From assembly GCA_002254845.1 (NCBI GenBank), contig NKPT01000015.1:1-59540 (forward strand): a DNA stretch of 59,540 nucleotides, read 5' to 3'. The stretch is from Chloracidobacterium sp. CP2_5A. Lineage in GTDB: Bacteria; Acidobacteriota; Blastocatellia; Chloracidobacteriales; Chloracidobacteriaceae. Below, one piece after another: positions 108 through 6,684 of the stretch. The notes under the pieces were generated by a model. The model ran no database searches and was not told the DNA's origin. It saw only the letters and a list, made by a program, of their open reading frames with translations. How positions within the stretch are numbered: the stretch's first letter is position 1; the number at the start of each line of letters is the position of its first letter. The translations under genes and the position numbers were made by a program.

Positions 108-281
108 GCGTCTGCGGGCTTCGTCGGCGGAGGCGCTCCTCGATGACGGTTCGGGCTGAGAAGTTTCCGTCCCAGCGCCCCTCGTCGGCGATGGTTTAGC
201 GCATCCGGCTGGTGGCGCGCCGCGCTCGCGGCCGGCCGGGTGCCGCAACGACACCGCGCCCCTCTCCTGGGCGCCCACTTC

Positions 282-1346
282 ATGGATGCTTTGGAACCCG
301 CCATCGAGCGGGATGTAGCGCTAGATGAGCGCCCCTTCCGTTTGGAAGGGGGCGGCGAGTTGCCGGAGGTCACGCTCCGGTGCGCGATTTACGGTTGCCC
401 GGAAACTGCGCCCGGCGGCGTCATTCTGGTCTGTCACGCCCTGACCGGCTCGGCCCGCGTCGCCGACTGGTGGGCGGGGGTCACAGGGCCGGGGCGTCCG
501 CTTGATCCGACGCGCTACGCGATTATCGGCGTCAACGTCCTTGGCTCGTGCTACGGCTCGACCGGGCCGAGCGCCATCAATCCGGCGACCGGGCGTCCCT
601 ACGGCGGGCGGTTTCCGCTGGTCACGATTGGCGACATGACGCGCGCCCAGCGGCTCGCCTTGCGGTCGCTGGGCGTTGCGCGCCTGACGGCCGTCATTGG
701 CGGCTCGATCGGCGGCATGCAAGCGTTGCGCTGGGCGACAGATTTTCCAGACGACCTCGACCTGTGCGTGGCCATTGGCGCGACGCCGCTGCCGGCCCTG
801 GGGCTTGCCCTCAATCACCTTCAGCGGCAAGCCATTATGCAGGACCCGGCCTGGCAAAGCGGCGACTACGCCGCGCAGCCGGCGGCCGGGCTTTCCCTCG
901 CCCGCGCCATCGCCATGTGCAGTTATAAGTCGGCCGCGCTCTTTGATAAGCGCTTTGGTCGGCGTCCGAATCGGTCGGGCGAAGACCCCCGGCGCTCGCT
1001 GGCCGGGCGCTACGACGTGGCCGGCTACCTTGACCATCAGGGCGAAAAGTTCTTTCGTCGCTTTGACGCCAACAGCTACCTTGCGCTCAGCAAAGCCATG
1101 GATGTCTTTGATCTCAGCGACGCCGAGCTGGCGCGCATTCGCGCGCGGGCGCATCTCGTTGGGCTGTCTTCCGACTGGCTTTTTCCGGCGGCGGGCGTCC
1201 GCGCGCTAGCCGAGCGGCTGCGGGCGGTCAACGTATCGGCGCAGTATGATGAAATCCTGACTGACCACGGCCACGACGGCTTTCTAGCTGAACCCGACGC
1301 GGTTGCCCCGTTGTTGAGCGCCGCGCTTGAAACCATACGCTCATGA
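282..1346 (+). CDS. metX: Homoserine O-acetyltransferase
   Basis: An alpha/beta-hydrolase-fold acyltransferase that acylates homoserine with acetyl-CoA, the first committed step of methionine synthesis. Family signs are LVCHALTGSARVADWW near the N-terminus, the nucleophile elbow GGSIGGMQ (Ser about residue 142), an Asp in SSDWLFP near 300 and a His in DHGHDGFL near 330. The 354 residues from ATG 282 are normal for MetX. An in-frame ATG at 240 would add 14 unconserved residues, and neither start has a strong ribosome-binding site. The gene follows metY by about 170 bp, in which I see no recognisable riboswitch. It overlaps the next gene by 4 bp (ATGA), so the two are probably cotranscribed and translationally coupled. 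MetX usually takes acetyl-CoA, but some members use succinyl-CoA and the sequence alone does not settle this. Confidence 0.92.
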   Translation: MDALEPAIERDVALDERPFRLEGGGELPEVTLRCAIYGCPETAPGGVILVCHALTGSARVADWWAGVTGPGRPLDPTRYAIIGVNVLGSCYGSTGPSAINPATGRPYGGRFPLVTIGDMTRAQRLALRSLGVARLTAVIGGSIGGMQALRWATDFPDDLDLCVAIGATPLPALGLALNHLQRQAIMQDPAWQSGDYAAQPAAGLSLARAIAMCSYKSAALFDKRFGRRPNRSGEDPRRSLAGRYDVAGYLDHQGEKFFRRFDANSYLALSKAMDVFDLSDAELARIRARAHLVGLSSDWLFPAAGVRALAERLRAVNVSAQYDEILTDHGHDGFLAEPDAVAPLLSAALETIRS

Positions 1347-2755
1347 ACCCTGGCGACAATCCCAATTCTCTAGCGTTGGCGGGCGCTGAGCCGCGCCCAA
1401 CCGTGATGAAGTTCGGCGGCACGTCAGTGCAAGACGCTGACGCCTTCGCCCGCGTTGCCGCCATCATTCGCCGCCAACGACTCCAGCGGCCGGTGGTTAT
1501 CGTGTCGGCCATGGCCGGCGTGACCGACGCCTTGCTGGCCGCCATCAAGCTCGCGCTTGAAAAAGGCGCGCCGACGGCCCTGGAATGGCTCGAGCCGCAC
1601 TTTGGCCGGTACAGCGAAGTCGCTGAGCATCTGACCAGCGGCGAAGCCTATGGCGAGTTTGTCCGGTTTCTCTATGCCGCCCGCGAAAGCTTGAGGCAGG
1701 CCTTCGACACCATGCGCCGGTATCCGGGAACCATCCCGCCCCTGCGGGATGAGGTCGTGTCCTACGGCGAGCGGCTCTCCGCGACGCTGCTGGCCGCCGT
1801 TTTGACCAACGACGGCCTGCCGGGGCGAGCCGCGGATGCGCGGGACTGCATCGTGACCGACGAGGTTTACGGCCGGGCGCGCCCCCGCTGGGAGGACACC
1901 GTCGCGCGCGCGCGCCAGACGCTCCAGCCGGCGCTGGCGGAAGGCGTCATCCCAACGCTGGGCGGCTTCATTGGCGCGACGCTCGACGGGGCGACCACCA
2001 CGCTTGGGCGCGGCGGCTCGGATTACTCGGCGACCCTTATCGGCGCGGCGCTCCAAGCGCGGGAGGTTCAGATTTGGACGGATGTCGCCGGGATTTACTC
2101 TGCCGACCCGCGCCTGGCCCCCAATGCGCGCCGATTGGAACGCCTTGCCTACGGCGAGGCGACGGATTTGGCGCTCTATGGCGCGAAGGTGCTCCATCCG
2201 CGCACCATTGAGCCGGTCGAGCGACTGCGGATTCCGGTCAGCATCCGCAACTCGTATGACCCCGAAGCCGGTTGCTCGATGATTACGCCGGATTCCGGCG
2301 CGCCGCCGGGGGCGATTCTGGCGGTCACGCACCGGGTCGGCATGGCGGCGGTCCACGTCCGCCCGTCCGGCGCGTGGCGAGCCGCCGGCGCGCTGGACGA
2401 CCTGGCCCGGACGCTCAACGCCCACGGCGTGCTGGTCGAGCACCTGGCCGCCTCCCGCCTGGGCCTTGCCGCGACGGTGGAAGACGGCGAGGAAGTGAGA
2501 GCCGCTTGCCGCGACTTGCGCGGGGCGGGCGAAGTCCGGGTGGCCGCCGAGCGGGCGCTGTTGTGCGTGGTCGGCAACTTTGGCGATGAGGTCACCGAGC
2601 TGCACCCGGCCGTGAGCGAGGCGCTGGCCGATTTCCGCGTGACGCCGCTGCTGCCGCATCCATCGCCATACTCGCGGCTTTTTCTGATGGCTGAGGCGGA
2701 CGCCCCAGCCGCCGCGCGACAGTTGCATGCGCGGCTGGTTGAAAATTTACCCTGA
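1343..2755 (+). CDS. lysC: Aspartate kinase
   Basis: Phosphorylates aspartate, the entry step to lysine, threonine and methionine. The N-terminal kinase domain carries VMKFGGTSVQDAD at about residue 22 and later TTLGRGGSDYSATLIGAAL, both hallmarks of aspartokinase. About 150 C-terminal residues form the regulatory ACT region (VVGNFGDEVTELHP). There is no homoserine dehydrogenase domain, so the 470-residue protein is the monofunctional type. It starts inside the metX stop codon (ATGA overlap), placing it with methionine genes. This suggests feedback control tied to that branch, but the allosteric effector cannot be read from the sequence. The symbol lysC is used in the generic sense. Confidence 0.92.
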   Translation: MNPGDNPNSLALAGAEPRPTVMKFGGTSVQDADAFARVAAIIRRQRLQRPVVIVSAMAGVTDALLAAIKLALEKGAPTALEWLEPHFGRYSEVAEHLTSGEAYGEFVRFLYAARESLRQAFDTMRRYPGTIPPLRDEVVSYGERLSATLLAAVLTNDGLPGRAADARDCIVTDEVYGRARPRWEDTVARARQTLQPALAEGVIPTLGGFIGATLDGATTTLGRGGSDYSATLIGAALQAREVQIWTDVAGIYSADPRLAPNARRLERLAYGEATDLALYGAKVLHPRTIEPVERLRIPVSIRNSYDPEAGCSMITPDSGAPPGAILAVTHRVGMAAVHVRPSGAWRAAGALDDLARTLNAHGVLVEHLAASRLGLAATVEDGEEVRAACRDLRGAGEVRVAAERALLCVVGNFGDEVTELHPAVSEALADFRVTPLLPHPSPYSRLFLMAEADAPAAARQLHARLVENLP

Positions 2756-2828
2756 GCGTGTAGTGTTGCGCTGGACCGCGGCCGGGCCGGCTAGCGAGTC
2801 CTAGCCTTCGCTAAAGGAGCGTCTGCCA

Positions 2829-3560
2829 ATGGCGGAGCTTTCCGACGCCAGCCTGCTTGTGCGGTCGTTTATGCGGGCCTACCGCTACACGACATCGAGC
2901 TGGCGGCCTGCGCGCCTGACCAAGCCGCTTGCCGCGTGCAACGTCGGCCTCGTCACGACGGCGGCGTTTCACTTGCCGACGCAGCCCGCTTTCGATCTCA
3001 AGCTGGCGGGCGATCCCTCGTTTCGCGTCATTCCGACGGAGGTCGAGCTGGCGACGCTCAAGGTCGGACACGTCAGCCCTTCATTTGACCACGCGGGCAT
3101 CGAGCGGGATCCCAACTTGGCCTTGCCCATCAGCCGCTTTCAGGAGCTGGCGGCCGAAGGCGCGGTTGGAAGGCTCAACGGGCGGGCATGGTCATTCTGC
3201 GGCTCGATTGCCAAGCCCGGCGAGCTCATCCGCCGCACCGCCCCGGAAGCCGCCCGCCAAGCGCGGACGGACGAGGTGGATGTCGCCCTGCTCACCCCGG
3301 TCTGACCGATGTGCAATCAGTCGGTCGGACTGATTCAAGCCGCATTTGAAAACGAAGGCATCGTGACGGTTTCAATTTCGCTCTACCGCTTCGTCACCGA
3401 GAAGGTGCGTCCGCCGCGCGCGCTCTGCGTGCCATTCCCGCTGGGCTATCCGCTTGGCGCGCCGAACGACCCGGCGCTTCAGCGGCGCGTCATCCTGGCG
3501 GCGCTGGACCTGCTGACGACGGATGAGCCGCCGCCTATCATCCGCGATTTTCAGCCATGA
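2829..3560 (+). CDS. GrdB/PrdB-like (PF07355-type) probable selenoprotein with in-frame UGA
   Basis: Read through one UGA (3303-3305), this frame gives a 243-residue protein with Sec at residue 159. The upstream part ends DVALLTPV and the downstream part continues PMCNQSVGLIQAAFENEGI without any frame change. In the glycine/sarcosine/betaine/D-proline reductase B family this position holds a redox-active Sec or Cys in a (U/C)PxCxQ motif; here it would be UPMC. A perfect 8-bp hairpin with a G-starting loop lies 9 nt after the UGA, matching the bacterial SECIS layout. AAAGGAG sits 10 nt before ATG 2829. The length is near that of PrdB-type subunits. The stop overlaps the next ATG by 4 bp, which implies that ribosomes do reach the end of the long frame. 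The substrate is unknown; homologues outside Stickland fermenters are generally uncharacterised. Alternatives are a Cys-to-stop nonsense mutation or a sequencing error. Confidence 0.8.
3315..3335 (+). promoter_or_regulatory. Candidate bacterial SECIS hairpin
   Basis: AATCAGTC (3315-3322) and GACTGATT (3328-3335) are perfect inverted repeats around the 5-base loop GGTCG. The loop begins 17 nt after the UGA at 3303-3305 and has G in its first two positions. These are the known spacing and loop features of SelB-bound bacterial SECIS elements. The stem is wholly within the coding sequence, as expected in bacteria. Confidence 0.72.
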
Positions 3561-4360
3561 CGGATTTGCCGCGCCTGCTGGCGGGGACGGTGGCGATGCG
3601 TCCCTACGTCTTTGTCTTTCTGCTGGCCTATCTTTTTCTGGCGGTGTCGCGGATGGGATGGGCGCGGACGCTCGTCTGGACGGTTGTGGCTTATCTCCTC
3701 GCCTTCGCCTGCGAGTGGAGTTCCATCCGCAACGGATTTCCCTTTGGGCTGTATCGCTACTTTGACCACACGAGCGACCGCGAGCTGTGGGTCGCCGGCG
3801 TGCCGTTTTTCGACTCGCTGTCGTTCGCCTTCCTATCGTTCGTCAGCTTCGAGGCGGCCGTCATCCTGCGAACGCCGTGGGTTTCCTGGCATGCGGCTTC
3901 CGATGACGCCGCCGCCCGGCGATCATGGCTGACCATCATCTACGCCGGGCTTCTCATGACGTTTCTCGATATCGTGATTGATCCCGTGACGCTCCAGGGC
4001 GACCGGTGGTTTTTGGGGAAGCTTTACGACTACCCAAGCGGCGGGCCGCACTTCGGGGTGACGATTGAGAACTATGTCGGGTGGTTTGTCGTGAGCGTTT
4101 TGATTACGACCAGCTTCCGGCTGCTTGACGCGACCGCGTTACGGGCGGTCAGTCGGCGCGGCGCGTTCGCCTTTCCGTTCAAGCAGGTCGCCCCGCTGGG
4201 CGTTTATTTCGGGATTTTGGCCTTCAACATCGCCGTCGCGTTCTGGATTGGCGAAACCACGATGGGCTGGGCCGGCGTCTTTATCGCCTTCCTGATTGGA
4301 TGGATGTTCTTTCAGCACGCCGTATCGCCCGCCCGGCGCTTGGATGGCGCGCGCGCTTGA
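3557..4360 (+). CDS. cruF: Carotenoid biosynthesis membrane protein, CruF-like (PF04240)
   Basis: A 267-residue integral membrane protein with about seven hydrophobic segments. It carries the CEWSS...GFPFGLYRYF and GVPFFDSLSF blocks and an IVIDPVTLQGDRWFLG block typical of the PF04240 carotenoid hydratase family. CruF adds water at C-1' of psi-end carotenoids such as gamma-carotene; archaeal relatives hydrate bacterioruberin precursors. This fits a phototroph whose carotenoids have hydroxylated acyclic ends. The start overlaps the preceding gene's TGA by 4 bp (ATGA), indicating coupling to the probable selenoprotein, an unusual partner. The exact carotenoid substrate is inferred only from the family. 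Confidence 0.8.
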   Translation: MTDLPRLLAGTVAMRPYVFVFLLAYLFLAVSRMGWARTLVWTVVAYLLAFACEWSSIRNGFPFGLYRYFDHTSDRELWVAGVPFFDSLSFAFLSFVSFEAAVILRTPWVSWHAASDDAAARRSWLTIIYAGLLMTFLDIVIDPVTLQGDRWFLGKLYDYPSGGPHFGVTIENYVGWFVVSVLITTSFRLLDATALRAVSRRGAFAFPFKQVAPLGVYFGILAFNIAVAFWIGETTMGWAGVFIAFLIGWMFFQHAVSPARRLDGARA

Positions 4361-6135: not shown

Positions 6136-6684
6136 CTAGCTTTCAGCGCTCGAGCTTTCAGCGCTCGAGCTTTCAGCGCTCGAGCTTTCAGCGCTCGAGC
6201 TTTCAGCGCTCGAGCCTTCAGCGCTTTCGGCGGCGAGGTCGTATGTGACCGGAATCTCGGAAGCGACGAGATTCCACGCATTGAACGACTTCATCATCGC
6301 CATGACGAGGCTCATGTTGCCTTCAATCTTGTAGTCCGGCGATGACAGCGCCCGCTGAACCGTGATCTCGCCGCGGTTGAGGCGGGCGGCTTTTTCAAAG
6401 GTCGTGGTCGTCCGCGAGACGAAGTTGGCGCTAAACGGCTCCTCGCGGAGCGCCTGCCAAGGGGCGGGCTGGTCTTCATACTTCCACTCCAGCGCCTTCC
6501 CCTGTCTGAACGTCCACTGCGTCCGCCGATCCTTGCCGTCTGGGGCGTCGTAAATGCGAAAGACAAACGTGCCGTTGAGCTTTTTGCCGTCCGCCAGGAA
6601 GCGCGGATCGGTCTCCATCCGCCGCGCCATTTCATCGAGCCATTCCTTGGAATAAAACTTAATCATCGCGTTTTCGAAGGTCAT
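6136..6684 (-). CDS. SCP2/sterol-carrier-like protein with repetitive Ser/Glu tail
   Basis: About 182 residues from ATG at complement 6682-6684; a second in-frame ATG at 6664-6666 (MIKFYSKEWLDEMARRM) is also plausible. The body, with FYSKEWLDEMARRM, LNGTFVFRIYDAPDG, KALEWKYE and SLVMAMMKSFNAWN, resembles small SCP2-like lipid-binding domains found in bacteria. The last about 30 residues are repeats of the pentapeptide ESSSA, encoded by a 15-bp tandem repeat. This low-complexity acidic tail is probably disordered and outside the fold. The gene is divergent from the ATP-grasp gene. A lipid or hydrophobic ligand is inferred from the family; none can be named. Confidence 0.7.
   Translation of the reverse strand: MTFENAMIKFYSKEWLDEMARRMETDPRFLADGKKLNGTFVFRIYDAPDGKDRRTQWTFRQGKALEWKYEDQPAPWQALREEPFSANFVSRTTTTFEKAARLNRGEITVQRALSSPDYKIEGNMSLVMAMMKSFNAWNLVASEIPVTYDLAAESAEGSSAESSSAESSSAESSSAESSSAES
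6138..6227 (+). repeat. 15-bp tandem repeat, five perfect copies plus one degenerate
   Basis: The unit AGCTTTCAGCGCTCG repeats exactly at 6138, 6153, 6168, 6183 and 6198. A diverged sixth copy (AGCCTTCAGCGCTTT) ends at 6227. The unit length is a multiple of three, so copy-number change alters the ESSSA tail of the minus-strand gene without shifting its frame. The first copy overlaps the stop codon. Confidence 0.97.

Follow-up and report, generated by a model that had tools for sequence, protein, structure and literature searches.

PrdB of D-proline reductase and GrdB of glycine reductase, the closest described relatives of the gene considered here, work together with a pyruvoyl subunit, to which the title of a 1999 paper by Kabisch reportedly points. 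Publications from 2005-2006 onward already describe selenoproteins of the PrdB type in organisms other than clostridia. According to the excerpts of the relevant papers used here, Zhang and Gladyshev found PrdB with a UxxC motif to be the third most abundant selenoprotein family of the Sargasso Sea, with 42 genes (PMC1088965), the GOS survey yielded 235 PrdB-type selenoproteins and 110 Cys homologues (PMC2398784), and a "proline reductase" selenoprotein was listed for Anaeromyxobacter and Geobacter in a 2006 study that gives 3 families and 4 selenoproteins for Acidobacteria (PMC1794560). A Chloracidobacterium member was not found in the literature: in their titles and abstract openings, the papers retrieved for Chloracidobacterium and selenocysteine concern ergothioneine and related compounds, and the main text of some Chloracidobacterium papers contains no word starting with "selen". 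The literature search gave neither a paper pairing "PrdB-like" with selenoprotein nor a function for a stand-alone PrdB-like protein.

The gene described here lies in a 59,540-nt stretch of the Chloracidobacterium sp. CP2_5A genome, referred to below as the window (Table 1). Its frame (2829-3557, plus strand) comprises 243 codons, and the sole internal stop is the TGA of codon 159, directly followed in translation by the residues PMCNQSVGLIQ. An earlier note on this DNA had described both features correctly, and its expectation that standard gene finding would split the gene agrees with the list of open reading frames, where it appears as pieces of 158 and 83 aa. The recoding of this UGA as selenocysteine, proposed in the same note, is supported by the conservation of the TGA, by Cys-containing relatives, by the selenocysteine machinery of the genome and by a conserved hairpin. 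We regard the decoding of UGA 3303-3305 as selenocysteine, in a predicted PrdB-like selenoprotein, as strongly supported. The best explanation as a whole, a PrdB-like selenoprotein with hairpin-directed Sec159 and a putative redox mechanism that would dispense with a pyruvoyl subunit, has in our estimation a probability of about 0.9. It corrects the annotation to one selenoprotein gene in place of two pieces, and adds a selenoprotein to the repertoire of an oxygen-requiring phototroph.

Table 1. Features of the predicted selenoprotein locus and its neighbours, in window coordinates; Sec-type rows are those of the 94-homologue alignment.
Feature	Position	Strand	Evidence
MetX (homoserine O-acetyltransferase) gene, located upstream, start codon provisional	240..1346	+	NCBIfam match
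Aspartate kinase gene, upstream neighbour	1343..2755	+	Profile matches; 6/7 genus genomes, not in G005
AGGAG, possible Shine-Dalgarno sequence, 9 nt 5' of ATG	2815..2819	+	By eye
Predicted PrdB-like selenoprotein gene, 243 residues, Sec159, final stop TGA 3558-3560	2829..3560	+	Frame, TIGR04483 match, TGA conservation
In-frame TGA, predicted Sec159 of UxxC motif	3303..3305	+	TGA in 67/67 Sec-type rows, one alignment column; aligns with TGA of annotated PrdB WP_148296006.1
TGC, Cys162, second residue of UxxC	3312..3314	+	Cys in 66/67 Sec-type rows, second U in the remaining one
Putative SECIS-type hairpin, AATCAGTC / loop GGTCG / GACTGATT	3315..3335	+	Stem search, pairing vs null, synonymous constraint
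Carotenoid gene, PF04240, CruF-like but under CruF cut-off, downstream	3557..4360	+	Profile matches

Relationship to PrdB and GrdB

The best NCBIfam match of the product is the PrdB model TIGR04483 (E 1.1e-33), with residues 28-230 aligned to positions 21-219 of the 238 in the model, at a score of 116.6 bits, which is under the equivalog cut-off of 300. A tblastn search against plasmids retrieved the annotated PrdB of Peptoclostridium acidaminophilum, with 34.1% of residues identical in an alignment covering 86% of the query; the coding sequence of the latter (WP_148296006.1) is annotated through an in-frame TGA, and the two TGA codons are aligned with each other. Homology to PrdB over nearly the whole length, with UxxC at the aligned place, indicates membership in the broad PrdB-like UxxC family, and this homology, combined with a score under the cut-off, argues for a PrdB-like selenoprotein and not for a PrdB equivalog. 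The assignment made in the earlier note, a GrdB/PrdB-like gene of family PF07355, needs to be amended accordingly: the similarity to PrdB extends over nearly the full length, but membership in PF07355 was overstated, as the scores of 18.0 bits for the whole product and 19.5 bits for the part 5' of the TGA are below the gathering cut-off of 22. A search of the CP2_5A genome with the PF07355 profile gave no match, and neither did the control genomes, hence the result is uninformative.

Among the alternatives, the one that survives best, though with a very low probability, is that the gene encodes a genuine subunit, either PrdB of D-proline reductase or GrdB of glycine reductase, whose partner was missed. 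It could draw on the nearly complete alignment with the PrdB model, on the identity to the P. acidaminophilum protein, and on the fact that the search with TIGR04480 (PrdA) had no true PrdA as a positive control, the control genomes giving 24-33 bits vs. the cut-off of 700. Also, PrdA need not adjoin PrdB, as the P. acidaminophilum annotation shows no PrdA gene in the roughly 4 kb around prdB. Apart from the score, which is far from that of an equivalog, this alternative is opposed by the lack of matches to PF09338 (GrdE type) and to TIGR04480 in all seven genomes of the genus (0/7 for each), yet both profiles match in three other genomes (G016, G028, and G043), where the TIGR04480 matches are sub-cut-off ones to GrdE-type genes. 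The same three genomes contain GrdB-sized, TGA-containing matches (L083-L086) and two GrdE-type matches each, and are candidates for carrying glycine/betaine reductase systems in Acidobacteriota.

Returning to the PrdB-like selenoprotein, we consider it, on the basis of sequence, to be probably a stand-alone protein that is part of neither D-proline reductase nor glycine reductase. As it would work without a pyruvoyl subunit, proline and glycine are both unlikely to be its substrate. The function outside classical Stickland chemistry that had been proposed for it remains a prediction, and one that is made likely by the lack of a PrdA or GrdE match together with the oxygen requirement of Chloracidobacterium thermophilum, as given in the excerpt of PMC4376005 used here. 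The question of the substrate can be tested in cultivable Chloracidobacterium.

Conservation of the TGA codon and of the downstream hairpin

A homologue of the gene was found in 43 of 58 relatives searched, and each of the seven genus genomes, that of CP2_5A included, carries it with one internal TGA. The closest named records, with 90% and 86% identity, come from MAGs of an uncultured Chloracidobacterium and an uncultured member of the Blastocatellia, respectively. In an alignment of 94 homologues the residues in the column of the TGA are U (67), S (11), C (11), E (3), and D (2). These 94 rows were selected from the matches found, of which the search of 396 Acidobacteriota genomes alone gave 122; omitted were, among others, a match containing one each of TGA, TAG, and TAA (G030:C356), a short match with one TAA (G033:C68), and, as duplicates, L076 as well as L019 and L020 (taken as G002:C62 and G003:C55). 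The codon for U is TGA in 67/67 cases and never TAA or TAG, and the next residue is always Pro. Sixty-five of the Sec-type rows come from Acidobacteriota, one from Myxococcota, and one from Pseudomonadota, and their motif is UxxC in 66 rows and UxxU in one, if a one-residue insertion in part of the GGUP subfamily is disregarded. The comparison with Cys-containing homologues, recommended in the earlier note, placed Cys at the Sec site in 11/94 rows, six of them with CxxC and five with CxxS. In the genus, the amino acid varies in 15 of the 84 codons 3' of the TGA and the third base in 66 of 84, which indicates that the downstream part is a selected protein.

These data bear also on the possibility that the TGA is a true stop and that two separate proteins of 158 and 83 residues are made, the second from the ATG at 3309. 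Both reading frames are open, this ATG is located 3 nt after the TGA, and an ATG occurs within 15 codons after the TGA in 36 of the 67 Sec-type homologues. In the remaining 31 there is none (GTG and TTG uncounted), and thus an internal start is not a conserved feature; in addition, no Shine-Dalgarno-like sequence can be seen by eye 5' of position 3309. The occurrence of TGA only, the single continuous frame of the Cys relatives, and the non-conserved internal ATG led us to reject the split gene, which we rate as slightly less probable still than a genuine PrdB or GrdB subunit. A recent pseudogene or a sequencing error in the MAG, which the fragmentation of the assembly might suggest, is refuted by the conservation of the same TGA in independent assemblies (7/7 genus genomes, three of them assembled in 2 contigs, and two records outside the phylum), is at odds with purifying selection 3' of the TGA, and can be given practically no weight.

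In the tree of the 94 rows, the deep joins of which are unsure because of long branches, all Ser rows at the Sec site cluster in a single supported group (100/100), and five changes are required for Cys, at least four of which are forced by well-supported branches. The 11 members of the Ser clade (L048-L053, L131, L133, L137, L141, and L143) have S-x-x-C with the codon TCG or TCA and lack a stem of at least 7 pairs; replacement of Sec by Ser, or a different chemistry, is possible. Five Ser-type loci (L115, L116, L119, L120, and L121) have, 110-205 nt upstream and on the same strand, an open reading frame of 165-196 aa belonging to one cluster, whose member at L116 is a DUF4149 protein. Glu or Asp at the Sec site is accompanied by Ser in place of the second Cys in L127, L128, L132, L129, and L136, which on sequence grounds are apparently non-redox relatives. 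One Sec-type homologue (L047, G017:C91) has two in-frame TGAs that would give UPIU, a UxxU motif. A second TGA-type subfamily, with GGUPxVCHR (L151-L153 and L155-L157), contains a one-residue insertion and coexists with the first in G022, G026, and G028. With Sec, Cys, Ser, Glu, or Asp occupying a single catalytic position, and with no pyruvoyl partner found here, the family offers a natural set for studying the role of selenium in GrdB/PrdB chemistry.

The perfect 8-bp hairpin with the loop GGTCG, reported to start 9 nt after the TGA, is indeed there, with 8 Watson-Crick pairs. Stems of at least 8 pairs were found in 36 of 2779 45-nt segments from seven window genes and in 597 of 200,000 synonymous redraws of the stretch itself, made with the codon usage of window genes. 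A hairpin of this size is therefore not rare, a single one proves little, and it is conservation that makes the case. Among the codons whose amino acid is invariant in the genus, the third base varies in 1/7 in the hairpin vs. 139/170 elsewhere (Fisher p 3.5e-4), and codons 161-168 make up the longest unvarying codon run of the gene in the genus, the next longest being 3. Beyond the genus, the pairing was assessed in 45 rows of the main clade (42 distinct sequences), with the 22 Sec-type rows outside this clade omitted. Standard pairs fill 88.7% of the pair cells of the 42 distinct sequences, while the synonymous-codon null has a mean of 64.4% and a maximum of 70.2% (n=1000), so that the observed fraction is reached by 0/1000 redraws; slid partners give 18-45%. 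The same positions in non-Sec relatives are paired in 49% (Ser), 55% (Cys), 54% (Glu), and 38% (Asp).

Individual pairs differ in composition, such as pair 11-27, seen as T-A, C-G, G-C, and T-G, and pair 15-23, seen as A-T, T-A, and G-C. Covariation did not exceed that in shuffles, as the changes on both sides in 3 pairs and the 11 extra pair types were reached by 444/1000 and 531/1000 of them, respectively; our claim is therefore one of selection on pairing and not of proof by covariation. In 53 of the 67 Sec rows (counted on rows) the best ungapped stem starts at an offset of 9-12 nt from the TGA, and 10 of the 14 Sec rows with the stem at other offsets belong to the GGUP/AGUP subfamily. Stems of at least 7 pairs are present in 5 of the 27 non-Sec rows, at other offsets. 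Results of our analysis thus point to a SECIS-type hairpin with a loop starting with G that is apparently under selection. Members of the GGUPxVCHR subfamily have no perfect stem at the usual place; their SECIS may be the bulged ACCGC...GCGGT structure around a GGTC loop that can be discerned by eye.

Selenocysteine machinery and gene neighbourhood

A search of the CP2_5A genome (385 contigs, 95.42% complete, 1.88% contaminated) for selA, selB, selC, and selD, which the earlier note had proposed, found all four above the curated cut-offs: SelA at 516.5 bits (cut-off 267.9), SelB at 355.9 bits (242.25), tRNA-Sec at 65.3 bits (47), in agreement with the tRNA-SeC call of ARAGORN, and SelD at 377.3 bits (125). 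SelB and tRNA-Sec, whose absence would have spoken against recoding, are thus both present. Above the cut-offs, the 14 control genomes gave tRNA-Sec in 5, SelB in 2, SelA in 1, and SelD in 2; matches under the cut-offs are common in them, which is why the cut-offs matter.

In the 396 Acidobacteriota genomes a homologue of the gene was detected in 102 (E <= 1e-20) and selA in 252 (E <= 1e-60). The latter is present in 63 of the 65 genomes with a TGA-type copy, in 33 of the 37 with non-TGA copies only, and in 156 of the 294 without a homologue, relatedness not being allowed for in these counts. The two TGA-type genomes without selA at this threshold are G153 (91% complete) and G261 (77%); in addition, G012 (83%) and G043 (94%) of the nearer set have the TGA gene and no selA match above the cut-off. 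Incomplete assemblies are a likely but unproven cause of these gaps. The presence of selA in 156 genomes without the gene indicates that the selenocysteine machinery has other uses. In the SelD of CP2_5A the N-terminal GCxxK stretch contains Cys, presumably the catalytic one, and the 23 molybdopterin oxidoreductase matches from the seven genus genomes are all free of internal TGA (G011 has one such match with TGA). These two findings underlie the tentative suggestion, made below, that the PrdB-like protein is a main reason for keeping the machinery here.

The gene order in the genus is aspartate kinase, selenoprotein gene, CruF-like gene. The ATG of the last overlaps the stop codon of the selenoprotein gene as ATGA in 7/7 genus genomes. 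The earlier note had taken this overlap to require read-through of the UGA; the overlap is real, but read-through is not required by it, as translation could in principle begin anew from the ATG at 3309. With the CruF-like start placed inside that stop codon throughout the genus, translation of the CruF-like gene may require Sec read-through and thereby be tied to the supply of selenium. The window also encodes a 1298-aa CobN/Mg-chelatase protein (1158 bits), which, together with the CruF-like gene, fits a phototrophic acidobacterium. At 6138-6225, 5.9 tandem copies of a 15-bp unit encode the C-terminal AESSS repeats of a 191-aa minus-strand open reading frame, for which no Pfam match was found.

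A search for operon partners covered 45 stretches, namely 40 neighbourhoods, the window, and L020-L023, and revealed no adjacent partner recurring across families. Clusters 2, 4, 5, and 14 are common to several families, but their distance and orientation vary. Six of the seven f7 neighbourhoods compared have, 14-547 nt downstream, a xanthine/uracil permease cluster, one member of which is annotated (11 f7 genomes carry the gene). In G011 the gene is flanked by RecX and methyltransferase genes, and in G013 by unannotated open reading frames of the same size and at the same place; other neighbours, annotated at one locus each, are an MTTB, an FAD oxidase, an ABC ATPase, a hydrolase, and an E1 dehydrogenase. 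All these counts are lower bounds, because at several loci opposite-strand frames (cluster 1) were picked over the gene or its neighbours. Since the gene has changing neighbours outside the genus, its surroundings give no clue to the substrate. Tentatively, and with considerable doubt, one may imagine widespread stand-alone PrdB-like selenoreductases that lack a pyruvoyl subunit and act perhaps on a nitrogen heterocycle imported by a xanthine/uracil-type permease, and which in Chloracidobacterium might be a main reason for keeping the selenocysteine machinery.

Proposed mechanism and comparison with known systems

In redox proteins with a UxxC motif, the selenolate attacks and the Cys resolves the intermediate, and by analogy similar roles can be proposed for Sec159 and Cys162. 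An AlphaFold2 model based on a 21-sequence alignment (mean pLDDT 91.0, pTM 0.91) contains a strand (residues 152-156) and a helix (160-175), which places Sec159 at the N-end of the helix. Among solved structures, no PDB chain was matched at Foldseek E <= 0.001, and the sequence search gave one match, with E 1.7; VIA-align pointed to LacI-type two-lobed alpha/beta domains (Z 8.8 and below), a resemblance that may be merely that of a common arrangement. In the proposed mechanism, SelB and tRNA-Sec would read UGA 3303-3305 as selenocysteine, directed by the hairpin 9 nt downstream with G as the first base of its loop. The selenolate of Sec159, lying before the helix N-terminus of the modelled alpha/beta protein, would attack an electrophilic substrate or a disulfide, Cys162 would resolve the intermediate by forming a selenenylsulfide, and the latter might be re-reduced by thioredoxin or cellular thiols. 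The enzyme would act without the pyruvoyl subunit (PrdA or GrdE) of D-proline and glycine reductases.

PrdB of D-proline reductase (TIGR04483) resembles the predicted protein in length, in homology over nearly the full length, in UxxC, and in the TGA at the same aligned place. The differences are that the present protein scores far under the equivalog cut-off and its genome has no PrdA match; the oxygen requirement of C. thermophilum, as stated in the excerpt of PMC4376005, is a further one. Similarity to GrdB (PF07355) is limited to residues 82-156, which match the end of the Pfam model, and residues 82-232, which match the C-terminal part of the GrdB/GrdH models, whereas GrdB has about 435 residues vs. 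243 here, the PF07355 score is below the cut-off, and no GrdE match was found. Haematobacter and Roseomonas plasmid proteins annotated as "glycine/sarcosine/betaine reductase selenoprotein B family protein" share 32-34% identity over 82-87% of the query, but have CPxC at the Sec site, about 305 residues, and other neighbours; a Paraclostridium relative has CGTC at this site. The PrdB-type selenoproteins that Zhang and Gladyshev described from Sargasso Sea and GOS data, as far as the excerpts describe them, differ in coming from marine reads or other phyla, and are similar in having UxxC and in being abundant outside the clostridia; they likely belong to the same subfamily as the protein of Chloracidobacterium.
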